Of a stretch of 37,763 nt of DNA, positions 9,639 through 35,221 are shown in pieces. Position 1 is the first letter of the stretch, and each line of letters starts with the position of its first letter. The stretch covers positions 1-37,763 of the forward strand of contig KE351685.1 in the NCBI GenBank assembly GCA_000415185.1. Direction: 5' to 3'. The notes under the pieces were generated by a model. It saw only the letters and a program-made list of their open reading frames with translations, searched no databases and was not told the origin of the DNA. Origin of the DNA: Enterococcus faecalis 13-SD-W-01. GTDB taxonomy: Bacteria; Bacillota; Bacilli; Lactobacillales; Enterococcaceae. Both the position numbers and the translations under genes were made by a program.

Positions 9639-9646
9639 AACAACAT

Positions 9647-9682: not shown

Positions 9683-9727
9683 ATGATCAATATTCAGTTT
9701 CAAACTATCACAGAGCTGTTATCCAAT

Positions 9728-10159: not shown

Positions 10160-10216
10160 AAATGGACTCAACCCCCTTGTATCTAAAGTACCATCAAGAG
10201 AAAATACAAGCAAATA

Positions 10217-10503: not shown

Positions 10504-10516
10504 TTATCCTCCCAAC

Positions 10517-10559
10517 AAAAAAACACCAAGCTTCACAATGCGGAAGCTCGGTGTTTTTT
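10517..10559 (-). terminator. Terminator of the serine hydrolase-manA operon
   Basis: Stem AAAACACC-AGCTTC against GAAGCT-GGTGTTTT, read on the minus strand and followed by a seven-base T run, 11 bp after the manA stop. Confidence 0.85.
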
Positions 10560-10569
10560 GTTTTTATTC

Positions 10570-11523: not shown

Positions 11524-11571
11524 CTTTCATACTCCTCTCAAACATTCACTGACATTATACCACTATTTTTT

Positions 11572-19449: not shown

Positions 19450-20225
19450 TTTTTATTATTCCTATCTTGAACAAATTTTTTTAATTTATCGATGCTTCGT
19501 TTTCCAAGTGTCAGCTGTCCTTTATTTTTAAATGTTACGATTTCTTCCGCACGATTGATTGACAAAATATTATCTATATTTATGAGATACGCTTTTAAAT
19601 CTTTGCAAAGACGTTCAGAACATAACGTTTCTTTGTATTTTTTGATTGTACCATTCACTAGCAGCTCTTCATCTTTTAGAACCAATACAACTTTATTTTT
19701 ATACCCGGGTGCACTTTCTAAATAAAGAATATCTTCATAGGAAATATAGTGATCGCTATTGCCGTAACGGACAACTGCCCAACTGTCTTTTTTGGGAGAA
19801 CTGCTGACAGGGATTGCCCATTCTTTTTTTAAACGTAATAAAAAGGATTGGATTTCTTTCCTATTTTGCTCGTATGTCATTTGTTTTACAATAAATGCGT
19901 TTGGATAAACATGCTGATTGATTGCTGTGATTGCTTTATCTGAATGAGAGGTCAGATAAACGATTTTACAGTCTTCACTTTTTTCCCGAATCTTTTCCCC
20001 TATATCAAGCCCATTGTAATGATAATTTAAATCGATATCCAAAAAAAAGAGATCATTTGATCGAATTTCGTTTGCGCGTACAAACTCCATAAATTGTGCT
20101 GGATTGAAATCATGGATGATCTCATATTCCATCGGTTTCCACAACGGTTTTGTCTCTTCTAAAATCTCACAAATCGTCTTTTCAAAAATCAAGCTGTCTT
20201 CCAAAATAAATATCCGTGTTGTCAT
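19446..20225 (-). CDS. LytTR-family response regulator, AgrA/ComE-like
   Basis: The 259-aa protein has a receiver domain (about 1-130) with acidic pocket ED at 9-10, phospho-acceptor Asp63 in FFLDIDL, Thr in YLTSHSD and Lys in FIVKQM. A LytTR DNA-binding domain follows (about 155-259, ISYEDILYLESAPGYKNKVVL). LytTR regulators bind pairs of 9-bp sites spaced by about two helical turns. The start at 20225 is set by GGAGGAG 5 bp upstream; the frame is open 15 codons further without a ribosome site. It lies directly after the polysaccharide operon terminator, so the operon is one possible target. Confidence 0.9.
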   Translation of the reverse strand: MTTRIFILEDSLIFEKTICEILEETKPLWKPMEYEIIHDFNPAQFMEFVRANEIRSNDLFFLDIDLNYHYNGLDIGEKIREKSEDCKIVYLTSHSDKAITAINQHVYPNAFIVKQMTYEQNRKEIQSFLLRLKKEWAIPVSSSPKKDSWAVVRYGNSDHYISYEDILYLESAPGYKNKVVLVLKDEELLVNGTIKKYKETLCSERLCKDLKAYLINIDNILSINRAEEIVTFKNKGQLTLGKRSIDKLKKFVQDRNNKK

Positions 20226-20388
20226 AAAATCTCCTCCATTTTTTAGTCCAATCAAGCCTAGTGTCTGCATAAAATCTTCGAAAAAATCGAACTGCTGTTA
20301 CATAAATCCTGCTAGCCAGCTCTCTTTTCATCATAGCCTTATTTGATTTCTCTCGCCTAATACATTGCTTCTTCTTATGCACACAGAA
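20226..20388. other. Leader region of the two-component operon
   Basis: No convincing promoter or gene is seen. It contains a perfect 5-bp inverted repeat with a 5-A spacer, TTCGA-AAAAA-TCGAA (20277-20291). A positively charged 66-codon open frame also crosses it into the regulator gene. Confidence 0.35.
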
Positions 20389-20428: not shown

Positions 20429-21301
20429 TTATAAGCGTGTGGAAAGTGTACGCAGATATGCTTTGAATGCTTCAGAAAATTCTGGATGTTTTAGACCATA
20501 CTCCACATTCGCTTGCAGCATCCCTAATTTATCGCCCACATCATAACGTTTCCCTTTAAATCGATGTGCAAATACACGCTGCGTACTGTTTAATGTATTG
20601 ATTGCATCTGTCAGCTGGATTTCGCCGCCGGCACCTGGTTCTTGCTTTTCTAAAATTGAAAAAATCTCCGGTGTCAGCAAATAACGTCCAATAATGGCTA
20701 AATTACTAGGTGCATCTGTTGGCGATGGCTTTTCAATAAATCCGTTGACATTGAAGAGATCTGCTTCAACTTCACTTTCTGGATCGATAATTCCGTATTT
20801 TTGGGTATCTTCTGGTAAGATTTCCATCACTGCAATCGTCGAAGCAGCTGTTTTCTGATAATTATCTATCAGCTGTTTTGTCAATGGCAATTGATCTTCC
20901 ATAATGTCGTCTCCAAGCATAACGATAAACGGTTCATTTCCGATAAATGCTTTTGCTTGTAATACAGCATGCCCTAGTCCAAGCGGTCTGCTTTGACGGA
21001 TAAAATGAAGATTGATATCGGTTGTTTCTTCTACTAATTTAAGCAACTCATCTTTCTGCTTTTGAATAAGATTATGTTCTAATTCAGCATTCGAGTCAAA
21101 ATGATCTTCAATCGGACGTTTCCCTTTTCCTGTAACAACCAAAATATCTTCAATACCTGAAGCAATAGCTTCTTCAACAATAAACTGGATCGTTGGTTTA
21201 TCGACGATTGGCAGCATCTCTTTCGCAATAGCTTTCGTAGCTGGTAAAAAACGTGTTCCTAACCCAGCTGCTGGTATGACAGCTTTTCTTACTTTTTTCA
21301 T
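20429..21301 (-). CDS. galU: UTP--glucose-1-phosphate uridylyltransferase
   Basis: Makes UDP-glucose from UTP and glucose-1-phosphate, the donor for capsule glucose, glycolipids and epimerised or oxidised sugars. The 290-aa protein opens with the nucleotidyltransferase motif [21 protein letters not shown]. It carries the sugar-binding segments VMLGDDIM and GFIEKPSP, and [10 protein letters not shown] near residue 230. Length is normal for GalU/GtaB/Cap4C. AGGAAAAG precedes the ATG. It starts 9 bp after the SLH-protein stop and is the last gene of the operon, so sugar-nucleotide supply is tied to polymer synthesis. Confidence 0.96.
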
Positions 21302-21310: not shown

Positions 21311-24300
21311 TCATTTCTTCACGGCAATATCCCATTGTTCATATGGATCAGAGTTATTATTGCGGTAATAGATTTTGTTATATTTAACATTTTCTGTTTT
21401 ATTTGCCTGTAGTTTTGCTTTATTGTCTGCACTGATTTCGTTATATACAGGTGCATAACTTTGTAATATCTCTGATACACTGTTTCCATAAACAAGCATA
21501 TCGATTTTTGCAATATAATCAGCATTGGAAACTTCGTTATTTGTGATTACGGGATTTTTTACACCATTGATTTTAAACGCGATACTTTCAGAATTTATAT
21601 CTGGGTGTTGCTCGCCGATATTTTTGATTTTATTTTCTTCAATAACCGGAGACTCCCAATTCATGATCTTGATCGCATTATGCGTACAGTTTTCGATCAG
21701 ATTAGATAAAATCTTGACATTCGTGTGAGGACTTTGCGGTGTATACATATGTGTTCCAATTGCGATACTTAAATTTTTAAAATGATTGTTTCTGATTGTA
21801 ATGTCGTTATTCTTCGTATTGTCTTGCGAACTATATGCTCCAGAAAATCCGCCAGTATTTGGATCAGGAACATCCAAATTGATTGCCTCTTTTCGGTCAG
21901 CTTGATAATGGGATTCCCATACATCATTAATAAATCCGCAGCCTTCGATCAATGTATTTTCAGAAGCATCAAGTTCAATAAAGTGATGCTTGACGTACAT
22001 ATTTTTAAAAGTAATGTTAGAAATAGCCACATTTTTTGTGTGTCCCATTTCCAGCACAACACCTGGTTTGCTTTGATTATCGATAATAACGTTGCTATTT
22101 TCTGGGGCTGTAATTGTAACATCATGAACACCTTCATATCCATGGTATAATATTTTGTTTTTGATATCCGTATAATTTGCTAAAACAAATAGTCCAGAAT
22201 TTTGACTAGTCTTTTTCATCAAAACGTTATCTTGGAACTCAATCGTTGTATTTGATGGTATATAAAGCACATTGCTGACATCATAATCACCAGATGAGAT
22301 AGTGATTTTCCCGCCCCCATTTTCTTCAATCTGATCTAAGTATGAACGCAGCGTCCAATAAATACGAGTTTCTTCTGTATAAGAATATTTATTTCTGTAG
22401 GGTGTACTACTTTCTGTCAAAATAAAGTCCGTTTTCGTATCTTTAAAATAATTGATTTGATCTTTTTTATCCCCTGTATAATCAATAATAAAATAGTATT
22501 TATTGAGTGTCTTAACAGTATTGGTTTCTTTCATCTGCTGGATTTGCAAATCTGTCACCACTGGTTCTTTGATTGTTCCAGATTCGAAGGTATAAGAAGT
22601 AAGGTAAAATGCCCGAGAAACAGCATCAAACTGGTTTTTGATAATTGTACTGTTTTCTGCTCCTGTCAAAACAATTGCATTTACTCCTCCCTTTGTAAAA
22701 TCAACAGCGCCTGCACCGATCGATGTAAATTCAGAGTTTGAAATTACTGCATCCTTCCATACTTTCCCTTCAATAGCCGCTTTGCTTAATTTCGCAAAGC
22801 GCGTTTGATCAATCAAAATATTGCTCTGCATATCATTTACTACAGGATTCATCGTTCGCACACCATATTGATAACCAGAAATCGTGTTGTTTTTCAACTG
22901 GATATTTTGACTGACTGTATTATCAGACTTGCTCCAAGCTGCTGGTTTAGGTGCTGTACCGGCTGCCGGATCAATCAAAATCGCTGTACTGGCTGAATTT
23001 GTTGATTGGATAGTACTATCGTTGATGTTGATATCTTTTGATCCGATTACTTTTATCCCATAAGAAGCTGTGCTATTCGCATTGATTTGCAAGTTTTCCA
23101 ATTGAATATTTTGTGTGTGAGCTAAAAGAAAGAGCGTACTTTTTTCCACTTCAGAATTGATTTGAACGGACCCTTCTCCAATGATCTTACTACCAGATAC
23201 ACCATCATAATTCCCAACAGAATCTGTTTTACTTGCACTATCACTCTCTGAAAATGAAAAAAGCACAGCAGACGGTTTGACTTCTGAATTTCCGACATCA
23301 GCAGACTGATTGATGACTGCTCCGTCTTTTAAACGTAACGTGATAGAAGATGGAATATTGATTGTATAAGGAATCGTATAGGTTCCTTTATCTAAAACCA
23401 ACGTCCCTCCTCCAATAGAGTCCAAGTAATCAAGATAAGAACGAATCAAATAATAATTCTTTGTTGCATCGTTATAATATTTACTTCCTACCCAAGTGTT
23501 ATTAAAAGGTAATGTATCTGGATTGATTTCTTCATAATCACTTTCATATTTTTTTACTTCAATGGATTTGCTGTTATTTCCATAAGTACTCCAAAGATAT
23601 TTTGTACCAGTATAATTGCAGGCACTGACAGTATATTGATAGGTTCCTTCTGGCAATACTTCTTTATCTAACCAAGTTGTTTCTTTTGTGCTGGCGACTT
23701 TTTCCCAGTCACTTCCTTCTTTTTTTCTGTAAACCCAGTAGACAGTTGCTGTTCCTTTTGTATGCCAATCAAGCTGGACTGATCCGCCTTTGATTTGTTC
23801 CAAATGATCAATCACAGGTTCTTCTGGGGCAAAATTCGCTTGTTTAAGTGCATTATCAAAATTCACAAGAAATGCTGCATACATCTCTCTGGTACAAGGT
23901 TCATTCGGCATGAATTTTCCATCAGATCCAGAAATAACTCCTGCTTTTGCTAGTTCAGAAACAGCTGCTTTGGCATAACTGGGTATGTCCTCTTCATCAC
24001 TGAATGACATAGAAGGTTTTTTTACAATTAATTCACTATTGCGATAGCGTACGTAGTTGGAAAAAAATACGGCAATCTGCGCGCGCGTCACTGTACCTTG
24101 AGGAGAAAATGTCGTATCTGATGTACCATTTGCAATCTTATTGGCTTCTGCCCATGACACATAAGGTGCGTAGCCCCAAGAATTGTAGTCAATATCTTGA
24201 AATGATGACTTTTGAAAGGCTGGATCTTTTGGATCAATTTTGGAATATCTGCCTAAGATCGTAATGAATTGCGCTCTTGTCAGCTTTCCTTTAGGAGAAA

Positions 24301-24499
24301 AAGTATCTGGACTTGTTCCAGAAATCCATCCATTTTCATAACTCTTTACGATACTGCTGTAAGCCCAACTTTTAGGGTCCACATCTGTAAAAGGTAATTG
24401 TTCCTTCTTTGTATCAGCAAAAATCATGAGCGGATAGAATAAAAGAATAGATACAAGAAAAAACAGAACGGTCTGTTTCAGTTGTTTTGATCTTTTCAT
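21311..24499 (-). CDS. Secreted SLH-domain protein with two parallel beta-helix (pectin-lyase-fold) modules
   Basis: A 1062-aa exported protein. Signal peptide 1-28 (MIFA/DTKK cleavage). Three S-layer-homology domains follow (about 37-85, 100-150, 165-213), with binding motifs TRAQ at 74-77 and 138-141 and TREM at 203-206. A fibronectin-III-like domain spans about 229-316. Two beta-helix modules start near 345 and 711, each opening with RSYLD and GGG and then an IPS-x-T-I strand. Repeated N-N-x-I/F strands mark the helix turns. The fold is shared by polysaccharide lyases, hydrolases and epimerases; catalytic residues cannot be assigned. SLH domains bind pyruvylated wall polysaccharide. Its gene sits between the flippase gene and galU in the polysaccharide operon. 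It has no LPXTG motif. AAGGAG precedes ATG. Confidence 0.88.
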   Translation of the reverse strand: MKRSKQLKQTVLFFLVSILLFYPLMIFADTKKEQLPFTDVDPKSWAYSSIVKSYENGWISGTSPDTFSPKGKLTRAQFITILGRYSKIDPKDPAFQKSSFQDIDYNSWGYAPYVSWAEANKIANGTSDTTFSPQGTVTRAQIAVFFSNYVRYRNSELIVKKPSMSFSDEEDIPSYAKAAVSELAKAGVISGSDGKFMPNEPCTREMYAAFLVNFDNALKQANFAPEEPVIDHLEQIKGGSVQLDWHTKGTATVYWVYRKKEGSDWEKVASTKETTWLDKEVLPEGTYQYTVSACNYTGTKYLWSTYGNNSKSIEVKKYESDYEEINPDTLPFNNTWVGSKYYNDATKNYYLIRSYLDYLDSIGGGTLVLDKGTYTIPYTINIPSSITLRLKDGAVINQSADVGNSEVKPSAVLFSFSESDSASKTDSVGNYDGVSGSKIIGEGSVQINSEVEKSTLFLLAHTQNIQLENLQINANSTASYGIKVIGSKDININDSTIQSTNSASTAILIDPAAGTAPKPAAWSKSDNTVSQNIQLKNNTISGYQYGVRTMNPVVNDMQSNILIDQTRFAKLSKAAIEGKVWKDAVISNSEFTSIGAGAVDFTKGGVNAIVLTGAENSTIIKNQFDAVSRAFYLTSYTFESGTIKEPVVTDLQIQQMKETNTVKTLNKYYFIIDYTGDKKDQINYFKDTKTDFILTESSTPYRNKYSYTEETRIYWTLRSYLDQIEENGGGKITISSGDYDVSNVLYIPSNTTIEFQDNVLMKKTSQNSGLFVLANYTDIKNKILYHGYEGVHDVTITAPENSNVIIDNQSKPGVVLEMGHTKNVAISNITFKNMYVKHHFIELDASENTLIEGCGFINDVWESHYQADRKEAINLDVPDPNTGGFSGAYSSQDNTKNNDITIRNNHFKNLSIAIGTHMYTPQSPHTNVKILSNLIENCTHNAIKIMNWESPVIEENKIKNIGEQHPDINSESIAFKINGVKNPVITNNEVSNADYIAKIDMLVYGNSVSEILQSYAPVYNEISADNKAKLQANKTENVKYNKIYYRNNNSDPYEQWDIAVKK

Positions 24500-24670
24500 T
24501 CGGTTCTCCTTTTTATTTATATCTATATAGTTGTTTTTTGAACTTATTTCACAAAAGCATTCTCAAGAATTCTGTTCCTTTTCCTTCTTAATATTTCAAT
24601 CATAAATGCTGCTTTTCCTGAACAAATGGAAAAAACGCAGAAGTCTGTTACGGGTTCCTTCCCATTTGTT
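24500..24670 (-). other. Longest gap inside the polysaccharide operon
   Basis: 171 bp between the flippase stop and the SLH-protein start. An 8-11 bp pairing of ACAAATGG with CCATTTGT across a 32-nt loop could slow transcription but lacks a T run. TATATA and TATAAA hexamers lie before the SLH gene without a well-spaced -35. A separate promoter for the SLH protein and galU is possible but not shown. Confidence 0.35.
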
Positions 24671-26149
24671 TTACAAACTCGTATTGAAGACATTACTTTT
24701 CATTACTTTCAACAGTAATACATATAAAATGACGCTTAGTGCACCATAGCTTCCTAATACAAAAAAAGGATTAGAAAAAAGAATGATTTTTTTCAATAAA
24801 AATAAAAGGATCATCACACCAAACATGGCAATTTCATTTTTAGCATACTCTTTCAATAAAAAGTTCCAAGAAATACCAACTTTGTAAATCGTGTCAAAAC
24901 GATACATAATCATTATCAAAGAAAAAACAGAAGCAATCGTCGTCCCTAATAAAATCCCGATTACACCGTAAAAACGTGCAAGTATCAAGCTGACGATGAT
25001 ATTTGTCACACTGACGATTACACTGTTTGATAAAGTTGATTTGGTATTTCCGTTTGCGTAGAAATAGCGATAGATCAAATCTCTGACAATGTTAAATTGT
25101 TGACCAAAAATCGATACCAGAATACATAAAAAGAGCAAATGCGTTTGGCTTGAACCAAATTTTCCCCCTTCAAAAATAAGTTTCAAAAATGTTTCTCCTA
25201 CACAATAAAAACCTGCATAAATCAGACAGATAAATGCATGGAATAAAATCGTATAATTCCAAAAATATGTTTTTTCTTCTTTTGTTCCTAATTTAGCAAC
25301 GATTTTTGGATAAGCGTACACAGTCAAATTTCCAATCAAAAGATTATTGACCATCAACAACACTTGATTAGAAAAAGATAAAATCGTCAGCATCCCGGTA
25401 GCTAAATTCGAAGCAATCAGCGAATCAACAAGTGTCTGTATTTTATAGACTCCGCTGCTGACTAGAGTAGGAAAAAAAATCACAAATAATTTTTTTACAC
25501 CAGGTTCCTTGAGCGCTAAACTTGGACTATAGCGATATCCTGTTTTCAGTGCAATCGAAAGATCAAATACCACATTGATCACTGAGCCGGCAAGCAAGAT
25601 CAGCAAATAAAACTGCATGTTATGCAGATTAGTATAATAAAGTCCTAACGCCACTGCTGCATTGGCAAACAACATCGTATATTTGGGTATCAAATAACGA
25701 TCAGTCACTTGGTAATAAGCATTTGTCACTCCTTGAAGCGCCAGTAATCCCTGAATCAGGAAGACGAGCAAAAGATAGTCAGCGACATGCTGCTGGAATA
25801 AGTTTTCTCTATTACTCAACAGTGCAATTAACGGAACTTTGACAGCTAAGATCGTAACTACTAAGAAGAAAACAACTGCATATATGACTGTAATAAATGT
25901 ATTGATGACTTTTGCTGATTCTTTTTTGATATAAGCTGGAATAACTACTGTTGTTATCCCACTTGTTATAAATAAGAAAAGAAAGCTGGCAATATTAGTC
26001 GCAAAGTTATATGCATCCATTTGTGTGGAAGCACCAAACCGAGTGGCCGTATAACTTGATTTGTATAACGCGATGATTTGCGAGAATCCTGTCAAAAGAA
26101 TCATCAGCAATAATTGGATCGCATCTTTTCGGTTCCCTTTTTTCATCAT
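24671..26149 (-). CDS. MurJ/MviN-type MOP-superfamily polysaccharide flippase
   Basis: A 492-aa membrane protein with about 13-14 hydrophobic helices. It opens with the family region SQIIALYKSSYTATRFGAST and QMDAYNFATNIASF, which resembles the MurJ start. In this operon it is the only candidate to flip the undecaprenyl-linked repeat unit, i.e. the Wzx function. MurJ itself flips lipid II and is usually unlinked to polysaccharide genes, so substrate assignment comes from context. It overlaps the cytidylyltransferase stop as ATGA. The two methionines at the start leave a one-codon uncertainty. Confidence 0.87.
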   Translation of the reverse strand: MMKKGNRKDAIQLLLMILLTGFSQIIALYKSSYTATRFGASTQMDAYNFATNIASFLFLFITSGITTVVIPAYIKKESAKVINTFITVIYAVVFFLVVTILAVKVPLIALLSNRENLFQQHVADYLLLVFLIQGLLALQGVTNAYYQVTDRYLIPKYTMLFANAAVALGLYYTNLHNMQFYLLILLAGSVINVVFDLSIALKTGYRYSPSLALKEPGVKKLFVIFFPTLVSSGVYKIQTLVDSLIASNLATGMLTILSFSNQVLLMVNNLLIGNLTVYAYPKIVAKLGTKEEKTYFWNYTILFHAFICLIYAGFYCVGETFLKLIFEGGKFGSSQTHLLFLCILVSIFGQQFNIVRDLIYRYFYANGNTKSTLSNSVIVSVTNIIVSLILARFYGVIGILLGTTIASVFSLIMIMYRFDTIYKVGISWNFLLKEYAKNEIAMFGVMILLFLLKKIILFSNPFFVLGSYGALSVILYVLLLKVMKSNVFNTSL

Positions 26150-26577
26150 ACTTCCTTTAATCTAAACTCTTTTTTCAAACGTAATTGAGTTGAACTGATA
26201 TCTTTCGTATAAGGAAGAAAGACCACATCCACTCCCTGTTCATTTAATTCTTCTTTTGTTTTGATCCAGCGTGCATCCTGAGCCCAATCATCTCCTACAA
26301 AAATCGCGTCATATGAAAATTCTTCCCATGAAGCTTTTTTATCTAAAGTCGTTGCAATCTCGGCTTGATCAACTGCTTTTATGTTTTGGACAATATTTCT
26401 GCGTTCCTCTTCATTGATAACTGGCTGTTTATTTTTATAATTTTTTACAAGTTCATCACTATTTACTGCTACAATCAAAAAATCACAGTATTCTTTCGCT
26501 TGATTGATCAAATTCAAATGTCCAATATGAAACATATCAAACACCCCTTGCGTATAACCGATTCTATATTTTTTCAT
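26146..26577 (-). CDS. Glycerol-3-phosphate cytidylyltransferase-like protein (TagD type)
   Basis: The 143-aa nucleotidyltransferase has the signature GVFDMFHIGH (11-20) with the HxGH motif, FVGDDW and the C-terminal ISSTQLR motif in place of RTEGISTT. TagD enzymes make CDP-glycerol from CTP and sn-glycerol-3-phosphate. The operon also encodes a CDP-glycerol glycerophosphotransferase (30938-32089), which supports this substrate. Related cytidylyltransferases use ribitol-5-phosphate-like or ethanolamine phosphates, so the substrate is an inference. It overlaps the pyruvyl transferase end by 14 bp and the flippase start by 4 bp. Confidence 0.88.
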   Translation of the reverse strand: MKKYRIGYTQGVFDMFHIGHLNLINQAKEYCDFLIVAVNSDELVKNYKNKQPVINEEERRNIVQNIKAVDQAEIATTLDKKASWEEFSYDAIFVGDDWAQDARWIKTKEELNEQGVDVVFLPYTKDISSTQLRLKKEFRLKEV

Positions 26578-27664
26578 GTTTCTCTCCTTTCAAAAATCCA
26601 TCCAACTGATCAAATTGGTGCTGCGATTCATCAATCAGCGGGGCAAGCTGCAACTCGTATCGATTGGTTCGAACCGCTTCAAAACCTAGTGTATCCAACT
26701 GATCTGTCATCGTATATGCGCCTTGATAGCGGCTTGTTTTAATTGTATTCAACATTTTTTGATCATAGATGATAGGATAAACATTACTTTTACATAACCA
26801 ACCAAGAATCATGCCGTGAAAGCGCGTCGTCACAGTAAATTCAGAGCGATTAATCGTATCTATTACTGTATCCATGTTCCTACCGTCATATAACAAAACT
26901 TCACTTTCAAAATCAGGCGTACTTTTTTTGATCATCGTTTTGATTTCATTGATTGCCTGCTCATCCCCCTGTGCATTGCAAAAAGAAAGAAATTGGATAC
27001 GATAGCCTTGCTCTGCTGCTTCTTTTCCGATTCTGCTGACTGCTTCAAGATAAGCTGATTTATATTGTTTTAAAGCTGGGCGATCAAATTCAATCGGGAT
27101 GATCGTGACCTGCTTTTGTTTTTTCTTAGGCTTTAACGGATAACTGAACACAATATCGTTTGCTCCTCGAACTTGTTCCAAATGATTATACTTTTCCTTT
27201 GAATACTCATCTCGGAAACAGATATCGAAACATTTCGAAAAAAATTCTTCATAGGTTTGGTAAAACTTTAGGCTTTGAGATGGACCAAAGTTACTGCCTA
27301 AAACAAACAAAGGTTTTTCTTTTATCAAAAAATCCTGATAAGAAGACAGCGAATTTTCCCATTGCGGGCGTTCTATAAACATCGATCCGCCGACAATAAC
27401 TGATCCATCGACTTTCTTTTGAAAATAATTTTTTAACAGTTGACGTTTCAAGACGATTTGTGATAATCGGTTGATTCCTCTGTATAAAGTCCCTTCTTTG
27501 ATTGGCTTTACATTTGGCAAATCTGAAAAACTATCAGCAAATCTTGGCTGCATAGGCAAGTAAAAAAGTGTCTGCGGATAACGTTTCGCTAAAATACGAA
27601 CAAAAAGATCGTCTCCCAGATTTTGATAACAATATGCTTTTAGGAATACTTTTTTATTCATCAT
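26564..27664 (-). CDS. Polysaccharide pyruvyl transferase family protein
   Basis: The family transfers pyruvate from phosphoenolpyruvate to a sugar to form a ketal (CsaB, WcaK, EpsO, EpsI). The 366-aa protein has an N-terminal YQNLGDDLF motif (N-x-GD-D/N), VIVGGSMF and the family core VTTRFHGMILGWL with Arg and His in the active site. The start is set at 27664 (AAAGGA 7 bp upstream), one base after the preceding stop; a second ATG follows directly. No signal peptide, so action on the lipid-linked unit in the cytosol is likely. The neighbouring SLH-protein gene makes a ketal-pyruvate product the most meaningful prediction. Confidence 0.88.
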   Translation of the reverse strand: MMNKKVFLKAYCYQNLGDDLFVRILAKRYPQTLFYLPMQPRFADSFSDLPNVKPIKEGTLYRGINRLSQIVLKRQLLKNYFQKKVDGSVIVGGSMFIERPQWENSLSSYQDFLIKEKPLFVLGSNFGPSQSLKFYQTYEEFFSKCFDICFRDEYSKEKYNHLEQVRGANDIVFSYPLKPKKKQKQVTIIPIEFDRPALKQYKSAYLEAVSRIGKEAAEQGYRIQFLSFCNAQGDEQAINEIKTMIKKSTPDFESEVLLYDGRNMDTVIDTINRSEFTVTTRFHGMILGWLCKSNVYPIIYDQKMLNTIKTSRYQGAYTMTDQLDTLGFEAVRTNRYELQLAPLIDESQHQFDQLDGFLKGEKHEKI

Positions 27665-27665: not shown

Positions 27666-28619
27666 TCACGTTCCTTTGATTGTTTTATAGAAATAAGGAT
27701 GAACAGCATTTAAAATGATTCGGAATTTTCTTTTCCGCGGAAGATCTTTTGCGAACAAGGTTCGATAGGCATTTTTCCGCAAAAAAGTTTGCATTTCCTG
27801 ATATTCCGGAAACTTTTCTTGCTGAAATTCGTACATCTGCTGTACTAATTTTTCTGCGATTCGTGTTTTCTTTATCCTTAATGCAGATTGGACTTGTTTC
27901 CAGTTATTTTCTTGACAAATTTTTTCTGCCGAACAAATCGCCTGCCATTCAGTAAGACGAGAAGGATTGAAAGCTGCTTCTTTTTTCATCATGGCACCTT
28001 GTTCATTCTCGTAATAAACATAAATCAATGGCGAACAAAGTCGTGCTCTGCTGATGTTCGAAGCATACGAAAACAAGAAAAGCATATCTTCACCAATCGT
28101 TATTTTTGTGTCAAAACGGAGCTGATACTTTTGGATCAATGTCAAATCAAACATTTTATTCCATAATGCTGTATTGACTTTTTGATAACGCAACGAGCTT
28201 TCAATGACTTCTTGGATCGTTGCTATTTTGCTAGGAAAAAATACATTTTTTTCTGTGTTTGCTTTCTTTACTTTATAACCGCCGATCGCTAAAGGATGAT
28301 TTTTCATTCCTTCAAGCAGTACCTCACAATAATCGTTCGTTATCTCATCATCGCTATCGACAAAGCAAACATATTTACCAGCTGCTAATGCTAATCCTTT
28401 GTTCCTTGCAGAAGAAACTCCGGCATTTTTTTGAGTAATGATACGAACTCTTGGATCTGCTACTTCTTGTAAAATCGTTCCTGTTTGGTCAGTAGAACCA
28501 TCATTAATCAACAGGATCTCGATTTGTTTGTACGTTTGACCAAGAAGCTGTTCGATACACTTTCTGATATAATTCTCACCGTTATAAACTGGAACAATAA
28601 TCGATACAAGTTCACTCAT
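27666..28619 (-). CDS. GT2 family glycosyltransferase (EpsJ/CpsI-like)
   Basis: The 317-aa enzyme begins with the GT-A motif VSIIVPVYNGENYIRKCIEQ, has LLINDGSTD and the DxD-type CFVDSDDEI (about 87-95). It continues to a basic C-terminal region without membrane helices. It adds one sugar to the lipid-linked repeat unit at the inner membrane face; donor and linkage cannot be read. Start overlaps the EpsG-like gene stop as ATGA and its own stop is one base before the pyruvyl transferase start. Confidence 0.9.
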   Translation of the reverse strand: MSELVSIIVPVYNGENYIRKCIEQLLGQTYKQIEILLINDGSTDQTGTILQEVADPRVRIITQKNAGVSSARNKGLALAAGKYVCFVDSDDEITNDYCEVLLEGMKNHPLAIGGYKVKKANTEKNVFFPSKIATIQEVIESSLRYQKVNTALWNKMFDLTLIQKYQLRFDTKITIGEDMLFLFSYASNISRARLCSPLIYVYYENEQGAMMKKEAAFNPSRLTEWQAICSAEKICQENNWKQVQSALRIKKTRIAEKLVQQMYEFQQEKFPEYQEMQTFLRKNAYRTLFAKDLPRKRKFRIILNAVHPYFYKTIKGT

Positions 28620-29770
28620 AATGACCCTCCGATAAAATGATAAGGCAATGTCTCACCTAAATTACGCATAATGATCAGTCGGTAAAAATAGGCTAGATAT
28701 AGTAAAATCAGCACAATATAAAGAAGGAAACGCATCCGTGTGCTCTTCACTTTGCTCAATAAATAAGGCATATACAATGTTTGACCAATCGAAAACATAA
28801 AAATGATCCGAGTGCTGTTAGGGATGATCATCGTCAACGAACAAATAATGGTTGTGAAAAGCGCCAAATTATAAAAGAATGTACTGTAGATATTGATTTT
28901 CTCAGGTGAGATCCGGGTATACTTTTCAAAAGCTGCTAAATCATCTTCTGGGTAATAAGAATGAATCGCCACAGCAATCACCAAAAACGTCAAATTGAAA
29001 AAAATAAAATCCCATTGGGTGTTATTGTTATCAAAAGCACTATTAAAATAATTCGTATACAAATTAAACGTAGTTGAAAGTCCGATCAGCATTTTGCGCA
29101 AAATACCTGAACCAAGATAGCTGACCACTACGATGATTGGCCCGTAGACAGGCGGAATCTTGATTTTTGGCAGAAAATACATAGGGATAAACGCGACTGC
29201 TGTCTTATGGAACAAAAAAGCAATGACCATCATGCATAGATACTTCACTAAGTTGCGTTCAACAATGTATTTAATAGCGAAAAGAAATACTGCTGTAGCA
29301 ATACTTTGCCGCATAATGTTCAAGGACGTGTTGAAGGATGCGCCAAAAATAAATAAGAAAATACTGAAACGGAGGTCAAGCGAACTATTTCTAAATGCTT
29401 GCCAGATAAAAAACAGCAGGACGGCATGCGTTAAGACAAATACCCATTGGACATCCCCCATACTCATGCCGATTTTTATCAAGTACTGGTACAAATATTC
29501 GTTTTTCAATTTATAATCCACACCTCTAAGAAGCTCTGGAATCTGCAAGGTGGAATAGACCGTGTAATCTGTACCAACTTTGTAGCGAAGTGCTGCTACA
29601 AGAAATAAGGGTATGATCGCCAAAAATGTGAAAATTTGATACTGTAAACTTTTTACATGTACTTTTTTTTCTCCAATCAGTACGTTGATTTTTTCTATAT
29701 TTTTTACGATGTACATTGCAATAAAAGCAAAGCATTCTGCTGCAAGAAACATAGTGATGTAAACAGCCAT
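28616..29770 (-). CDS. EpsG family membrane protein, probable repeat-unit polymerase (Wzy role)
   Basis: A 384-aa protein with about ten membrane helices. It carries the EpsG-family core VAALRYKVGTDYTVY and, after a long loop, SLNIMRQSIATAVFLFAI. EpsG proteins take the place of Wzy in many Firmicutes exopolysaccharide operons and polymerise repeat units outside the membrane. No other polymerase candidate is in the operon. It lies 14 bp after the GT4 gene and is coupled to the GT2 gene by ATGA. Confidence 0.88.
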   Translation of the reverse strand: MAVYITMFLAAECFAFIAMYIVKNIEKINVLIGEKKVHVKSLQYQIFTFLAIIPLFLVAALRYKVGTDYTVYSTLQIPELLRGVDYKLKNEYLYQYLIKIGMSMGDVQWVFVLTHAVLLFFIWQAFRNSSLDLRFSIFLFIFGASFNTSLNIMRQSIATAVFLFAIKYIVERNLVKYLCMMVIAFLFHKTAVAFIPMYFLPKIKIPPVYGPIIVVVSYLGSGILRKMLIGLSTTFNLYTNYFNSAFDNNNTQWDFIFFNLTFLVIAVAIHSYYPEDDLAAFEKYTRISPEKINIYSTFFYNLALFTTIICSLTMIIPNSTRIIFMFSIGQTLYMPYLLSKVKSTRMRFLLYIVLILLYLAYFYRLIIMRNLGETLPYHFIGGSL

Positions 29771-29784: not shown

Positions 29785-30924
29785 CTAATCCTCACTTATA
29801 TAAAACTGTGTCAATTCATCAGCGACGTGCGCCAAAGAGAATCCTTTTTCTGCAATCTTTTCTACGTATCGTTCTCGTGCTGATTTTTTTGCTGTTAAAA
29901 CGTGGTTCAGTGCTTCTGACCATTCTGTTTCTGTACTTGTCAAATCAACAAAACGATTCATTCCATTAATCAAATCGATTTCCTGTGTGATAATAGAAGA
30001 AAAACAGCAAGGCAGGCCATTAGCTTGCGCTTCAACACCGACTACTGGCAATCCTTCATAATGAGAAGGCAGTAAAAACAAATCAGACGCACTCATCAAT
30101 TGCGGAATATCTTTTCTGACACCTAAGAACCGCACATGTTCCATTATTCCTAATGCATTCACTTGTTTTTTGATTTCAGGTTCTAGCTCACCTTCTCCTA
30201 CAAGAAGCAGTACAGCTTTTGGCTCTTTTTTCAAAAATCCGGCAAATATTTTGATCAGTTGTTGATGATTTTTTTGATGGACAAAACGTCCTACGTGAAG
30301 AAGTGTTTTTTGATCTTTGGACAATTGTAATTCTGCTCTGATTTTTTGTCGGTCAGAAGCATTGAAGCGAAATTTTTCAGTATCTACACCATTATTGATG
30401 ATGCGATAATGAGAACTGTCAATTGTTTTTTTAGTAAACATAAATGAACCAGCTTTTCTAGCACATGCAAAATAATCAGTCGCTGTATAAGGAAAAAGCC
30501 ATTTAACCAGATTGCCCATCCAGATTTTCCATTTTTTATCATTGCCTGCATTATGCGAATGGATAATGATTTTTTTTGCACCGCTTAGTTTACTGATAGC
30601 AGCTACTTGCAGATTGAAAAAAATAGAACCTGAATTACAGTGGATGATCTGATAATCTTCTTTTTTGATCAATTGATATAATTTTCTCCAAAATTCTATT
30701 TTTCGTTTCAAGAAAAAACCTTTTGTATTTAGTTCAATGATTTTGCCGCCGCTGGACTCTATTTCTTGACGATACATAGCAAAAGAAGACTTTCGCGGTG
30801 CCAAGAAATCAAATTGGATCACCTGATGATCGATTTCTCGATAAATATTCAGAAGCATAGAAGACACACCGCCGAATACTTGACCGATATTCAATTGAAG
30901 GACTCGCACTGGTTCTTTTTTCAT
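29785..30924 (-). CDS. GT4 family glycosyltransferase (EpsF-like)
   Basis: The 379-aa GT-B enzyme has the N-terminal VLQLNIGQVFGGVSSMLLN acceptor region. It also has the second-domain marks LLHVGRFVHQKNH, LGVRKDI and SHYEGLPVVGVEAQANGLP, with the retaining-GT E-x7-E pair. It should add a sugar to the growing lipid-linked unit with retention of configuration. Three consecutive ATG codons follow GAGGAG; the third (30924) gives the best spacing (8 bp), the first (30930) is only 2 bp away. It lies 14 bp after the glycerophosphotransferase gene. Confidence 0.9.
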   Translation of the reverse strand: MKKEPVRVLQLNIGQVFGGVSSMLLNIYREIDHQVIQFDFLAPRKSSFAMYRQEIESSGGKIIELNTKGFFLKRKIEFWRKLYQLIKKEDYQIIHCNSGSIFFNLQVAAISKLSGAKKIIIHSHNAGNDKKWKIWMGNLVKWLFPYTATDYFACARKAGSFMFTKKTIDSSHYRIINNGVDTEKFRFNASDRQKIRAELQLSKDQKTLLHVGRFVHQKNHQQLIKIFAGFLKKEPKAVLLLVGEGELEPEIKKQVNALGIMEHVRFLGVRKDIPQLMSASDLFLLPSHYEGLPVVGVEAQANGLPCCFSSIITQEIDLINGMNRFVDLTSTETEWSEALNHVLTAKKSARERYVEKIAEKGFSLAHVADELTQFYISED

Positions 30925-30937
30925 CATCATTTCTCCT

Positions 30938-32089
30938 CTAATCCAAATTTATTTGTGCTAAGGCTAGTGCCCGTTGACAATTATTACCATCTTGGTACGC
31001 ATTGACTCGATCATTGACTTCTTTTCTTCGTTCAACAAAATCATCTTTAGCCATTGAAATATCCTCAATAAAGTGATAAACATCTTCTGGTGTTTTTAGT
31101 CGTGCACCTGGACGGAACCAATCAGGATCATCAACGGCAAATCCTCTAGTATCTTGATATGATTCCATGTCGTCTTCTGTAAATCCAATCGGCCGATCTA
31201 ATAATAGATAGTCATAAAAAACAGAGGAATAATCCGTCAGCAAAGCCGAAGAACCCGCAAGCCAAGTATATAAATCTAGATTTTCTGCTTTGAAACGCTC
31301 TTGATCATAGATTTTGATATGTTTGAATGGTTTTTTCGTTAATTGGACAGCATCTTGCAAAGGGTGTAACTTAACCGCTAATTCTATACCCGTTTCTTCT
31401 AACTTCTGATCGAGTGCTTCCCAATCCGCTGTTTCTGAAAAAATAGGTAATGACGAACCAAGCTCGCTGTCAGAATACCCCGTAATCGATGATTGTCGGA
31501 AAGTGGGCAGCCAGACAGTGTAAGGCTTTTGTTCGTTTAAAACAGTTTTATCATAGAAAACATCTGTCCGCGGATGCCCGCAGATCCAAACGTTTTTTTC
31601 CGGTACAGAAAACTTTCGGCTAACAATGGGACGGAAAAACTCAGAAGAGGCAAATGTCCAAGTATAAAACTGTTTATCAAAAGAATTCGTTTTTTGCGTC
31701 GATTGGTCAAATCCTTTGAAGGAAGTACCGTGCCACATTTGGATACTGATTTGGTTCTTTGCAGGTTTGATTGGTATCCGTCCAAAACAATAGTAGATTT
31801 TCGATGCAGTAAAATAATGCAGGCCGCCTTTTAATGGACTCGTGAATCGAACATTTTTAGCAATTGCTGATTGTTTTTTCCAATCGCTTGTACTGCAGAT
31901 GATTTGATATTTCTCGTTATAGCCGTTTTCAACGAGGTGCTGATACAACGATTCAATATTGTCCCGAAATCCCATATTGCTGTATAGCAGTATTTTGGTT
32001 TCTTTTTTGGGAATCCATTTGTTCAATAGCGAAAAAATGACAAATACTTTATTGATCAAAAAATTTTTGAGTTTTACGTTTCTTATCAT
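30938..32089 (-). CDS. CDP-glycerol glycerophosphotransferase (TagB/TarF/TagF-like)
   Basis: A 383-aa member of the Glyphos_transf family. Family marks: YCFGRIPIKPAKNQ, the catalytic WHGTSFKG (His at about 120), HPRTDVFY, LAVKLHPLQ and LTDYSSVFYDYLLLDRP. It transfers glycerol phosphate from CDP-glycerol to a lipid-linked glycan or an existing glycerol-phosphate chain. Length fits the primase/short TagB-TarF class rather than the long TagF polymerase, so a single or few glycerol-phosphate additions are likely. It starts in the base next to the preceding stop codon. Donor supply is explained by the TagD-type gene in the same operon. Confidence 0.92.
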   Translation of the reverse strand: MIRNVKLKNFLINKVFVIFSLLNKWIPKKETKILLYSNMGFRDNIESLYQHLVENGYNEKYQIICSTSDWKKQSAIAKNVRFTSPLKGGLHYFTASKIYYCFGRIPIKPAKNQISIQMWHGTSFKGFDQSTQKTNSFDKQFYTWTFASSEFFRPIVSRKFSVPEKNVWICGHPRTDVFYDKTVLNEQKPYTVWLPTFRQSSITGYSDSELGSSLPIFSETADWEALDQKLEETGIELAVKLHPLQDAVQLTKKPFKHIKIYDQERFKAENLDLYTWLAGSSALLTDYSSVFYDYLLLDRPIGFTEDDMESYQDTRGFAVDDPDWFRPGARLKTPEDVYHFIEDISMAKDDFVERRKEVNDRVNAYQDGNNCQRALALAQINLD

Positions 32090-32590
32090 TTATCCACCTA
32101 CTAACTGATTCGCGATTTTTTTAAAATCCTGGATAAATTGCGGATTGTGGCTGGCATGATTCGCCATCATTGTTTCAGATAAACGGTCATACGTATTGAT
32201 AACTTCTTCCAATTCATCCATTTCTTCGACAACGAGAATATTTTTCATTTCAGCTGCTACTTTTTTGGCAAAATCGACTTGATGATCGTTGACATGTTCG
32301 TGGAAACGATACTGTCTTGGGACAACGATTGGTATTTTGCCTTTCTCCAAAGCCATCATAAATGTTGCAGGGCCGCCATGAGTAATGATGATATCGGCTT
32401 TTTCCATATAGGCGTTCATCTCTTCAAATGAAATGATCGAACGAAACTCGCAAGCTTTCGGCTCATAGGAAGTAAAGCCAGTTTGGATAAAGACGTCTTC
32501 CTTGATTTTCCCTGAAGCTTTTAATTGATCCATTTTTTTGATCAAGCGTTCAAAGGATTGTTCATGCGTTCCCACGGTTACAAAAATCAT
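32090..32590 (-). CDS. Alg13-type glycosyltransferase catalytic subunit (CpsG/EpsF-type, GT28 C-domain)
   Basis: The 166-aa protein starts MIFVTVGTHEQSFERLIKKMD, the typical Alg13/EpsF opening, and has ADIIITHGGPATFMMALEKGK, the donor-binding loop. It supplies the catalytic half of a split GT-B enzyme whose other half is the Alg14-type protein encoded just before it. The pair adds the second sugar to undecaprenyl-PP-sugar. The start at 32590 is set by AGGAGG about 9 bp upstream and overlaps the previous stop as TAATG; the open frame continues 19 codons upstream inside the Alg14 gene. Confidence 0.9.
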   Translation of the reverse strand: MIFVTVGTHEQSFERLIKKMDQLKASGKIKEDVFIQTGFTSYEPKACEFRSIISFEEMNAYMEKADIIITHGGPATFMMALEKGKIPIVVPRQYRFHEHVNDHQVDFAKKVAAEMKNILVVEEMDELEEVINTYDRLSETMMANHASHNPQFIQDFKKIANQLVGG

Positions 32591-33039
32591 TAGAAGATCC
32601 CTCCTAAGCAGACAGCTTTCGGGTAGACAGTTTGCATTTCTTTCCATTGGACAATAAATGTATCTGTCACAGGATAAACAAGTTTTCCAGTAACAGTTGG
32701 TTTATCTACGCGGTCGAAAACTTCGATGTAGATTGTTTTCGCACCGAATAATTTTCCTAAATAAAAGAAAGGAACAGCTACTGCTGCGCCAGACGATATG
32801 ATCAAGTCCGGTTTTTCTTTTAATAATACTTTCAATGCTAAGAAGGTATTTTTAATAAGATTTTTTGCATTTCTATTTGTGGGAAAATGACAATTTATTT
32901 TTCTTTCTTCTGCTAACAAATGATTGGCATCTGTTTTATCGAAAGTAACCCAAAACCGCTCTTCGTTTTGCCAAAATTCTTTTAACATATATAAATGAGT
33001 CAAATGTCCGCCGCTTGAGCCAACTAGACAAACTTTCAT
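32590..33039 (-). CDS. Alg14-type glycosyltransferase membrane subunit (CpsF-like)
   Basis: The 149-aa protein has the GSSGGHLTHLYML opening, DLIISSGAAVAVPF and IYIEVFDRV, all typical of Alg14/CpsF/EpsE subunits that recruit the catalytic partner to the membrane and bind the lipid acceptor. It is encoded directly before the Alg13-type gene, sharing one base. It starts 21 bp after the sugar transferase gene. Confidence 0.9.
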   Translation of the reverse strand: MKVCLVGSSGGHLTHLYMLKEFWQNEERFWVTFDKTDANHLLAEERKINCHFPTNRNAKNLIKNTFLALKVLLKEKPDLIISSGAAVAVPFFYLGKLFGAKTIYIEVFDRVDKPTVTGKLVYPVTDTFIVQWKEMQTVYPKAVCLGGIF

Positions 33040-33060: not shown

Positions 33061-33783
33061 TTAATACGCACCATTTGGATGAACCATGACACCAAATGTA
33101 CGAGTAATGATCAAAATATCTAATGAGATACTTCGATGTGTGATATATTGGATATCCAATTCGACCATTTCATCAAAATCCATTTCATTTCTTCCGCAAA
33201 CTTGCCACAATCCTGTGCAGCCAGGACGCACTAGCAAACGTTGAAGATCATGCTCCGAATATTCAGCGACTTCTGCTGTTAATGGCGGGCGCGGGCCAAC
33301 TAAACTCATATCACCTTTCAACACATTCCATAATTGCGGCAGCTCATCTAAACTATATTTGCGGATAAATTTTCCGATTTTAGTGATACGAGGATCATTT
33401 TTGATTTTGAACATTGCCCCTTTGATTTCATTCAAATGCTGCAATTCTGCTAAACGTTCTTCGGCATCCATGTACATAGAGCGTACTTTGTAGATTTTGA
33501 ATGGTTTGCCGTCTTTTCCAATTCTTTCTTGTACAAAGAAAATAGACGAACCAAATTCTTCAAATTGCATAAATAGTGCAATCATTAAGATGATTGGGGA
33601 AGAAAGGATCAATCCAGCAGCGCTGCCTAGAATATCGATCGTTCTTTTCCAAAAAAGGTAATACAGTTGCGTGAAGTAATCTGCTCTGCCTAAAGTTACT
33701 TTACTGATATGGTTTTCATTGAATAACTTTTTTTCAGAAACTTGTATTCTTGGTGGTTCATCTAGGTGAATGATTTTAGCCAT
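33061..33783 (-). CDS. Undecaprenyl-phosphate sugar-1-phosphate transferase (CpsE/WbaP/EpsL-like)
   Basis: Initiating enzyme of the repeat unit; it moves sugar-1-phosphate from a UDP-sugar to undecaprenyl phosphate. The 240-aa protein is the short form: about 45 N-terminal residues, one membrane (re-entrant) helix near 45-70, then the catalytic core. Core motifs are KVRSMYMDAEERL, DELPQLWNVLKGDMSLVGPRP and RPGCTGLWQVCGRNEM. The four-helix domain of full WbaP/CpsE is absent. The start is ATG at 33783, 8 bp after AAGGAG; a GTG three codons earlier is less likely. It overlaps cpsB by 8 bp. The transferred sugar is unknown. Confidence 0.92.
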   Translation of the reverse strand: MAKIIHLDEPPRIQVSEKKLFNENHISKVTLGRADYFTQLYYLFWKRTIDILGSAAGLILSSPIILMIALFMQFEEFGSSIFFVQERIGKDGKPFKIYKVRSMYMDAEERLAELQHLNEIKGAMFKIKNDPRITKIGKFIRKYSLDELPQLWNVLKGDMSLVGPRPPLTAEVAEYSEHDLQRLLVRPGCTGLWQVCGRNEMDFDEMVELDIQYITHRSISLDILIITRTFGVMVHPNGAY

Positions 33784-34522
33784 ATAGCTCACTCCTTATT
33801 ATTTTTTCGCCAAGGATAACGTTCTTCGCGTTTTTTTGTAGTTGTTCTGTGAGGGTGTCGTCAAAATTCTCTGTGATTTTTTGATAGGCATCTTTTAAAC
33901 AGATCCGGCGGTAAACTAAGTCATGGGCATCTGTAGCAATCGTATGTATCAATCCTTTTTCCAACATACTGAATGCCGCATCTTGGATATTTTCTCCATA
34001 ATCACCTAGCAAACTCCCTACATTCATTTGTGTGATTCCGCCTCTTTGTATGAACCAATCTAATAATTGCAGTTTTTTGCGGAATTTTTTGTTACGTTCT
34101 GGATGGACAATGACAGGGATATAACCTTTGTTCAATAAATAGATGAACTGTTTTTTTGCATATCTCGGTATGTGATCTGAAGGAAACTCCAAAAGAAAAT
34201 ATTGTTCTTTTGAATCAAGGAACAAGATATCTTTTCTTTCAAGATATGTTGGCAATTCTTTGGATATCCTTACTTCTTGTGCTGGGATCAATGTGATTGG
34301 GATTTCTTTTTTAATAAATTCTTTTTGCAGTTTTCCAACGAGTGTTTTGACCAATATTGCTGGATTTCCATACACTTCATTAAAATGCGGGCTACAGCAA
34401 ACATGAGTGATTCCTTGTTCTGCTGCTGCTTCCGCCATACGAAGACTAGTTTCAAGATCTTCTGCTCCGTCATCAATGCCGGGCAAGAGATGGCAATGCA
34501 AATCGATTATGACAGTCACCAC
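33776..34522 (-). CDS. cpsB: Capsule tyrosine-protein phosphatase, PHP type
   Basis: Metal-dependent (manganese in relatives) phosphatase that removes phosphate from the CpsD kinase tail. The 248-aa protein has the PHP motifs DLHCHLLPGIDDGA (8-21), CCSPHF, VHPERN and ATDAHD. Initiation is unusual: no ATG is available near the start; two consecutive GTG codons follow the cpsD stop after three bases, and the AAAGG site overlaps the first. Translation is probably coupled to cpsD. It belongs to the CpsC-CpsD-CpsB control module of Wzy-dependent polymers. Confidence 0.93.
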   Translation of the reverse strand: MVTVIIDLHCHLLPGIDDGAEDLETSLRMAEAAAEQGITHVCCSPHFNEVYGNPAILVKTLVGKLQKEFIKKEIPITLIPAQEVRISKELPTYLERKDILFLDSKEQYFLLEFPSDHIPRYAKKQFIYLLNKGYIPVIVHPERNKKFRKKLQLLDWFIQRGGITQMNVGSLLGDYGENIQDAAFSMLEKGLIHTIATDAHDLVYRRICLKDAYQKITENFDDTLTEQLQKNAKNVILGEKIIRSELYG

Positions 34523-34525: not shown

Positions 34526-35221
34526 TTAGTAGTAATAGATGTTCTCTTTTTGCTGAATAGAATTGTTATATACGATTCCAACTAAATTGACGCCTCCTTG
34601 TTTCAAAAGGCGCTGTGCTTTCAATGTTCTGTCTTTGCGGCTGTTATTTTCGCTAACGACCATCACGGTGCCGTCCGTTTTGGAAGAAACGATCTGTGCA
34701 TCGGCAACTGCAAAAAGAGCTGGAACATCGATCAATATAATGTCGTAAATTCTTTTCGTTTTTTCCAAGACCGAATCAAATTTCTTCGAATTCAATAGTT
34801 CTGCAGGGTTGGGCGGAAAGGTTCCTGAGACTAAAACAGAAAGATTATCGATTTCCGTTTTTTGAATCGTTTCTGCTATTTTTTTGTCTGAACTCAATAG
34901 ATTGCTCAGACCGTCAACATTTAGCAGTTGAAAGGTTTTAGCCACTGTTGGTCGTCTCATATCTGCATCAATAAGCAGTACATTATAGCCAGCTTCCGCA
35001 TATACCACGGCAAGATTAGCTGCTGTTGTTGATTTTCCTTCTCCTGGATCGCCAGAAACGATAGTAAGGGTTTTTAGTTCTTTATCAGAAGAGACCGCGA
35101 ATTGAAGATTTGTGCGAATTTTTCGATATTGTTCTGATATAGGTGATTTTTTGTCGTACATCGTAATCAGTTCGATGTTGCTCGTATGTTTTCCCCGGCG
35201 TCTTTTTTTAAACAACTTCAT
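34526..35221 (-). CDS. cpsD: Capsule BY-kinase (tyrosine-protein kinase)
   Basis: Cytosolic autophosphorylating tyrosine kinase that works with CpsC to control chain length and export. The 231-aa protein has Walker A SGDPGEGKST (56-65), Walker A' LLIDADMRRP (82-91), Walker B IILIDVPA, and a C-terminal tail ending in ENIYYY, a three-tyrosine cluster that is the phospho-acceptor site. It overlaps cpsC by ATGA. The kinase needs the cytosolic end of CpsC for activity, as in other Gram-positive split systems. Confidence 0.94.
   Translation of the reverse strand: MKLFKKRRRGKHTSNIELITMYDKKSPISEQYRKIRTNLQFAVSSDKELKTLTIVSGDPGEGKSTTAANLAVVYAEAGYNVLLIDADMRRPTVAKTFQLLNVDGLSNLLSSDKKIAETIQKTEIDNLSVLVSGTFPPNPAELLNSKKFDSVLEKTKRIYDIILIDVPALFAVADAQIVSSKTDGTVMVVSENNSRKDRTLKAQRLLKQGGVNLVGIVYNNSIQQKENIYYY

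Follow-up and report, generated by a model that had tools for sequence, protein, structure and literature searches.

A pyruvyl transferase and a putative SLH-displayed beta-helix protein encoded in one capsule-type operon of Enterococcus faecalis 13-SD-W-01

In the 37,763-nucleotide stretch of contig KE351685.1 of Enterococcus faecalis 13-SD-W-01 analysed here (the window), we identified a capsule-type operon that encodes both a polysaccharide pyruvyl transferase (pyrT) and a secreted protein with three surface layer homology (SLH) repeats and a beta-helix body. The operon comprises 15 genes on the minus strand (35946-20429) in the order wzd, wze, PHP phosphatase, priming sugar transferase, a pssD/pssE-type pair, a CDP-glycerol glycerophosphotransferase family gene, a family 4 glycosyltransferase (GT4), an EpsG-type polymerase, a family 2 glycosyltransferase (GT2), pyrT, a tagD-like cytidylyltransferase, a MurJ-family flippase, the SLH-beta-helix gene and galU. 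A single run thus holds the Wzd, Wze, phosphatase, priming transferase, glycosyltransferases, polymerase and flippase of a Wzx/Wzy capsule operon. We put at roughly 50% the probability that this is a capsule or exopolysaccharide (EPS) operon of the type found in lactic acid bacteria, equipped with an accessory protein that is displayed through its SLH repeats and acts on glycans. A preliminary description made from the sequence alone had placed pyrT at 26564-27664 and the SLH-beta-helix gene at 21311-24499 of one operon; both positions proved right, and PF04230, PF00395 (three times) and PF13229 all match over their cut-offs.

The SLH gene is the third gene downstream of pyrT, with the tagD-like and flippase genes in between. 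A gap of 171 bases separates it from the flippase gene, and one of 9 bases from galU. A consensus scan for terminator-like sites returned none in either gap. In the whole region it gave 17 sites against 12.4 expected. Weak ones on the operon strand lie close to the end of the flippase gene (24747-24729) and within the SLH gene (24322-24306), both inside coding sequence. A single transcript across the operon is thus plausible.

The product of the SLH gene has a signal-peptide-like start, as judged by eye, followed by the three SLH repeats (PF00395, 1.6e-30, 105 bits against a cut-off of 20.8), which align with the SLH region of the Sap structures, and by a linker at about residues 220-318 with a sub-threshold match to a fibronectin type III (FN3) domain. 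According to the accessible text of a structural study, the binding site beside repeat SLHn is formed by Gly29 of SLHn, Trp13 of SLHn+1 and Arg43 of SLHn+2, with Tyr counted in place of Trp for SlhA (PMC6081394). The corresponding residues here are W45/G61/R75, W108/G125/R139 and Y175/G191/R204 in the successive repeats, and by this rule all three predicted grooves are complete: G61-W108-R204, G125-Y175-R75 (Tyr for Trp) and G191-W45-R139. The SLH trimer therefore looks fit for a ketal-pyruvate sugar, as far as predicted pockets can tell.

SLH proteins had been called atypical of lactic acid cocci, and our surveys bear out their rarity in lactic acid bacteria. Matches occur in two of 105 genomes of the family, namely the present one and E. 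florum, and in one of 15 genomes of the genus, the present one alone. The order and class were surveyed as samples of 395, 200 and 250 genomes; SLH matches were found in two of the 395 genomes of the order, the second being a lone repeat of 25.6 bits. At 814-1632 of locus L023 in genome G361 we noted a 272-residue open reading frame (ORF) with one SLH match, which by eye has a rhodanese-like C-terminus and no signal peptide. In the genome of the window, the three matches are confined to the window protein. Because only draft assemblies exist for the genomes of the window (95 contigs) and of E. florum (99% complete), absences from them are not absolute. PF04230, in turn, matches in 45 of the 105 family genomes (44 over cut-off) and not in E. 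florum.

A gene of the SLH type preceding galU was also sought across the genus by tblastn against 40 loci, comprising 29 galU regions (three on further contigs of the same genome and 26 in the remaining genomes of the genus, some ending at contig ends, with the broken galU pieces of G034 left out), eight others and loci L009-L011; the SLH protein was matched in the E. florum locus (L010) alone. A scan of the named genomes with two peptide patterns likewise returned only E. florum, and none of the titles and abstracts found by searching the open-access literature describes an SLH protein encoded in a capsule operon of enterococci.

The SLH gene might be a chance passenger, a mobile gene inserted into the operon without serving it. 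Its patchy distribution would suit such an origin, as would a transposase-like ORF seen by eye near the E. florum SLH gene (loci L006/L010) and the transposases near a Pontibacillus relative of the beta-helix. However, 1062 codons have stayed open, the pockets and the beta-helix family motif are intact, and the gene lies on the operon strand 9 bases from galU, and we consider this explanation improbable.

A different objection concerns the ligand. The SLH trimer may bind peptidoglycan or some other anionic glycan free of pyruvate, in which case the proximity of pyrT would be incidental. SLH binding without pyruvate is reported for a Paenibacillus protein. E. florum has retained an SLH-beta-helix protein although PF04230 finds no match in its genome, and non-pyruvylated anionic polymers are allowed for by the authors of the structural study in the text accessible to us (PMC6081394). 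However, the three pockets of the window protein are intact, whereas in the E. florum protein repeats 1 and 3 no longer have Gly29 and repeat 2 no longer has Trp, leaving by eye a single site, with Tyr. The direction of this loss fits a link between pyruvylation and the upkeep of pockets, in a comparison of two proteins that allows no statistic, but the pocket left in E. florum is the G2 pocket, on which SpaA and Sap are described as mainly relying (PMC6081394). We regard binding independent of pyruvate as unlikely, with a real claim to attention.

The transferase matches PF04230 (PS_pyruv_trans) at 1.3e-20 (74.9 bits against 25.3); a longer start at 27709 is possible and would overlap the upstream gene. 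The preliminary description had invoked CsaB as the maker of ketal pyruvate, and the phylogenetic check places pyrT elsewhere. Its score against the CsaB model TIGR03609 is 61.2 bits, with a cut-off of 213.1. In a tree of 30 rows, which used 15 of the 30 CsaB proteins fetched, pyrT groups at 98/95 with seven relatives from the order, of which two are nearly identical, and apart from a CsaB clade at 99/99. A forced grouping of CsaB with pyrT was rejected by the approximately unbiased (AU) test (p-AU 0.000261; long branches, including that of pyrT, were flagged by the program). The acceptor motif GYYGF, present in all 15 CsaB rows, is replaced in pyrT by AYCYQ, one residue shorter, and the loop-1 arginine (R207) of the same 15 rows by Glu.

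In contrast, pyrT retains the equivalents of S88, R148, R306, H308 and K328 of Paenibacillus alvei CsaB. This mapping relies on the distances between motifs and not on the P. alvei sequence: distances of 60, 2 and 20 residues agree, and that of loop 1 does so in one of three rows. The last four are tied to binding of phosphoenolpyruvate (PEP), and the acceptor of CsaB is given as ManNAc-GlcNAc-PP (ManNAc, N-acetylmannosamine; GlcNAc, N-acetylglucosamine), in the portions of the enzyme study available (PMC10435577). Since the PEP-binding residues are kept and the acceptor motif and loop-1 arginine are absent, pyrT is probably an active pyruvyl transferase with a different acceptor sugar. At a threshold of 1e-15 it has matches in eight of the 395 genomes of the order, its own and those of the seven relatives. 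The loci of these relatives (14-20 kb, some ending at contig ends) all contain matches to the glycosyltransferases of the operon, and five of the seven match its priming transferase.

The ligand of the SLH repeats might also be made elsewhere in the genome. The draft contains a second PF04230 match, on contig C36, which scores 97.9 bits against CsaB, above pyrT; neither reaches 213.1. It lies in a second polysaccharide locus (L011, within the first 12,000 nucleotides of the contig), where we observed a pyruvyl transferase, a TagA-family gene and a nucleotide-sugar dehydrogenase at 1575-11796. Contigs C12 and C36 both carry additional capsule-type loci. The C36 genes could make a pyruvylated dock of the ManNAc type, leaving pyrT merely to decorate the capsule. 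The C36 transferase groups beside CsaB (93/85, not starred), and its acceptor loop is as long as that of CsaB and carries two aromatics (Phe and Phe), with Ser at the F16 position. The TagA-family gene matches TIGR00696 (TagA/WecG) at 167 bits against a cut-off of 69; the acceptor of CsaB named above is a further point in favour. However, 97.9 bits is far under 213, and the S88 and loop-1 arginine positions are not retained. The dehydrogenase, whose best specific model is that of UDP-ManNAc dehydrogenase, reaches 329 of the 459 bits needed there and passes only the general nucleotide-sugar dehydrogenase cut-off. Moreover, genome G027 has a transferase 63% identical to that of C36 in a similar-looking locus (L056) and no SLH match, and a TagA-family gene is also found in the C12 locus. 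As the source of the ligand we slightly prefer pyrT to the C36 transferase, but the largest share of probability goes to neither.

The body of the protein matches the right-handed beta-helix family PF13229 (35.3 bits against 25.9) and consists of two related modules with 27% identity (5e-14), whose borders we chose. The whole protein matches the phage tail spike family PHROG 2234 at 6.9e-40, a match that runs through module 2 and is best at residues 720-992. Surface glycans are common targets of phage tail spikes. Among phage records, 62 match module 2, each at less than 60% identity, and 37 of these are from Bacillus phages. A search of the PDB with a two-row profile (A1) gave nothing of use; an eleven-row profile (A3), its rows being our choice, finds the structures of PfbA from Streptococcus pneumoniae (3zpp, 4mr0) at about 1e-39. 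The preliminary expectation of a body from a carbohydrate-related family thus holds. The motif shared by PfbA and PHROG 2234, E-x-x-[QN]-x-[DE] ... G-[TS]-H, is present in module 2, where E871, D876, D893 and H917 are among the 20 columns invariant in the eleven rows of A3. By alignment and spacing, E328, Q331, E333 and H377 of PfbA correspond to E871, N874, D876 and H917. In a 22-row alignment E871 is lost in module 1 alone; lacking both the E and the H of the motif, module 1 is probably structural or binding. Module 2 likely has a glycan partner and may cut it.

In the class, 25 of 250 sampled genomes match, the present one included. The nearest homologues by score after E. florum (1e-58 to 1e-62) occur in eight genomes of one Bacilli genus, perhaps Exiguobacterium-like; of four loci there (L126-L129), all four were included in tblastn and two were read, and in both of the latter the gene is solitary. 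This genus was considered as the donor of a protein with SLH repeats and rejected, as SLH matches are absent from all eight genomes. An LPXTG-type anchor is present in a streptococcal relative, and for the Pontibacillus relative, near annotated transposases, the annotation gives a stalk domain. The anchors attached to this one beta-helix family thus differ. We also observed chromosomal relatives of tail spike beta-helices of 366-367 residues in two genomes of f17/g93 (L130, L131), in a shared neighbourhood and, by eye, with no signal peptide and no adjoining phage genes.

These relationships raise the prospect of a PfbA-like adhesin, displayed through SLH repeats instead of an LPXTG anchor, which binds outside glycoconjugates and is unrelated to the capsule polymer. 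Module 2 has the cleft motif of PfbA, for which binding to fibronectin and plasmin has been reported, with no lyase activity detected on the panel described in the available text (PMC3718772). However, the nearest relatives after E. florum are the solitary proteins of the Bacilli genus, the family includes phage tail spikes, and the gene sits within a capsule operon. On balance an adhesin seems to us a minority possibility.

We therefore return to the accessory protein that acts on glycans. Lactic acid bacteria carry operons of this kind on plasmids as well as in their chromosomes, and the polymer made here would probably be decorated with glycerol phosphate and ketal pyruvate. The accessory gene between the flippase gene and galU would encode a surface-displayed protein that is secreted and then held non-covalently by its SLH trimer, the three predicted pockets fitting a ketal-pyruvate sugar. 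Module 2 would act on or bind a polysaccharide, most likely the operon's own polymer, in trimming, release or organisation. The sequence itself establishes the order of the genes, their domains, the complete pocket signature, the motif of module 2 and the separation of pyrT from CsaB, whereas pyruvylation, the ligand of the SLH repeats and any enzymatic activity with its substrate are inferences. The preliminary interpretation is supported in part. That this same polymer is also the SLH dock is a proposal we consider less likely than not. The fullest version, a self-contained display independent of CsaB in which the operon pyruvylates its own non-ManNAc capsule and the SLH enzyme docks on it and edits it, we judge rather unlikely.

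Several observations weigh against the reading as a whole. The two genes occur apart: the SLH protein has no match in the loci of the seven pyrT relatives, no SLH match exists anywhere in those seven genomes, and E. florum has the SLH protein and no PF04230 match. Strict co-occurrence is ruled out by these cases, and the evolutionary pairing suggested at the outset finds no support, independent occurrence being the very finding that the preliminary description had named as contrary to it. Since SLH is found in just two of 105 family genomes, no association statistic is possible, and the SLH-beta-helix proteins of this kind that we found number two, those of the window and E. florum. Given that pyrT is no CsaB and does not have the acceptor motif of that enzyme, the pyruvyl-ManNAc of the SLH structures, as far as these are described in the accessible text of PMC6081394, is not expected from pyrT. 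The G2 pocket is retained in E. florum although its genome has no PF04230 match. In the 22-row alignment D876 becomes Glu in three streptococcal rows, and one row (L115) lacks both D876 and H917. Finally, because no lyase activity was detected for PfbA, module 2 may bind rather than cut.

The pocket signature is found here in a genome of the enterococcal family with no CsaB over cut-off, beside a pyruvyl transferase of the capsule type. At stake is whether SLH domains can recognise pyruvate when it sits on a different sugar, and whether a capsule can have glycan-active proteins of its own docked on it. If the display were self-contained, the range of SLH ligands would be wider than pyruvyl-ManNAc. 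The two rival transferases in one genome offer a clean two-gene test.

The features of the operon are collected in Table 1. The genes wzd, wze and php were named by homology to annotated plasmid clusters, and the roles of polymerase and flippase were assigned from their families. The tagD-like gene matches another nucleotidyltransferase model slightly better than that of glycerol-3-phosphate cytidylyltransferase. We take one member of the glycosyltransferase pair to be pssE, from the family and the position of the gene. Downstream of galU on the same strand (18151-20270), we observed by eye a LytTR-type regulator and a histidine-kinase-like gene, which may control the operon. Besides the galU of the window, the genome has three more galU-like copies, 73-74% identical (contigs C91, C12, C94 and C52 for the four).

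Table 1. Genes of the capsule-type operon and segments of the SLH-beta-helix protein (window positions)
Feature	Position	Strand	Evidence
galU, last operon gene	20429..21301	-	TIGR01099, 374 bits, cut-off 326.8
SLH-beta-helix secreted protein, 1062 aa	21311..24499	-	PF00395, PF13229, PHROG 2234
Three SLH repeats (about residues 36-216)	24263-24394, 24071-24202, 23885-24007 (span 23885..24394)	-	PF00395
Module 1	about residues 323-689	-	E and H of the family motif no longer present
Module 2	residues 690-1062; 21314..22432	-	E871/N874/D876/D893/H917 present
MurJ-family flippase (putative Wzx role)	24671..26149	-	domain match
tagD-like cytidylyltransferase	26146..26577	-	73 bits, glycerol-3-phosphate cytidylyltransferase cut-off 165
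pyrT, polysaccharide pyruvyl transferase, capsule type, not CsaB, 366 aa	26564..27664	-	PF04230
GT2 glycosyltransferase	27666..28619	-	domain match
EpsG-family protein (putative Wzy role)	28616..29770	-	domain match
GT4 glycosyltransferase	29785..30930	-	domain match
CDP-glycerol glycerophosphotransferase family protein	30938..32089	-	domain match
PssE/PssD-type glycosyltransferase pair (ORFs 32090-32647 and 32590-33039)	32090..33039	-	pssD: 72% identity to annotated C. futsaii protein
Priming sugar-phosphate transferase (Bac_transf)	33061..33792	-	domain match
PHP phosphatase	33776-34522	-	tblastn to annotated CpsB/CpsD/Wzz-type genes of L. plantarum plasmid cluster
Wze-like tyrosine kinase	34526-35221	-	tblastn to same L. 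plantarum genes
Wzd-like chain-length protein	35218-35946	-	tblastn to same L. plantarum genes

A cluster resembling that of the window was found on a conjugative plasmid of Companilactobacillus futsaii (NZ_CP064861.1), where eight window genes are matched by tblastn in a similar order, with identities of 33% (php), 56% (priming transferase), 72% (pssD), 64% (tagD), 47% (glycerophosphotransferase), 52% (GT4), 34% (GT2) and 36% (pyrT). However, the annotated polymerase and flippase of that cluster do not match those of the window, tagD lies earlier, and an extra acyltransferase is present; the 19.5 kb read hold neither an SLH gene, by annotation or by match, nor a beta-helix gene. On plasmids of Priestia aryabhattai and Lactiplantibacillus plantarum, pyrT is followed by a MurJ-type flippase, with no SLH match by tblastn on the stretches fetched. 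The annotation of plasmid records is incomplete, and tblastn covered the fetched stretches. Pyruvylated EPS has been reported in a lactic acid bacterium, Pediococcus pentosaceus (PMC6801904).

The known relatives of the accessory protein each share part of its design. The E. florum protein (NZ_BJCC01000008.1) has the three SLH repeats and module 2, with 41% identity in the module. However, it lacks the linker and module 1, has one predicted pocket, and is encoded by a solitary gene (37 kb read) in the genome without PF04230. PfbA shares a homologous beta-helix core and the conserved cleft motif, but is an LPXTG-anchored adhesin with one beta-helix, and the streptococcal relative (L018, 3.7 kb) differs in having, by eye, no adjoining capsule gene. 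The tail spikes of PHROG 2234 belong to the same beta-helix family but are virion proteins.

In Bacilli, SLH anchoring is tied to CsaB and to pyruvyl-ManNAc in secondary wall polymers, as set out in the accessible text of PMC6801904 and PMC6081394. CsaB scores over cut-off in 89 of 200 sampled genomes of the class. Twelve genomes chosen from among the best-scoring of these each have 17-89 SLH matches, unlike the three of the window genome, and a hand count puts an SLH match no more than 20 kb from csaB in at least seven of the twelve. P. alvei clusters csaB, tagA and tagO with two SLH-protein genes, slhA and spaA (PMC6801904, as far as its text was available), so that the word 'undescribed' in the preliminary description was too strong. 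Like the window, this secondary cell wall polymer (SCWP) locus brings together a ketal-pyruvyl transferase and SLH genes with the Trp/Gly/Arg pocket. In contrast, the transferase of the window is not CsaB, and its setting is a Wzx/Wzy capsule operon rather than a TagO/TagA locus. SLH genes clustered with csaB were thus already known in Paenibacillus; what is new is a transferase other than CsaB in a capsule context of the lactic type.

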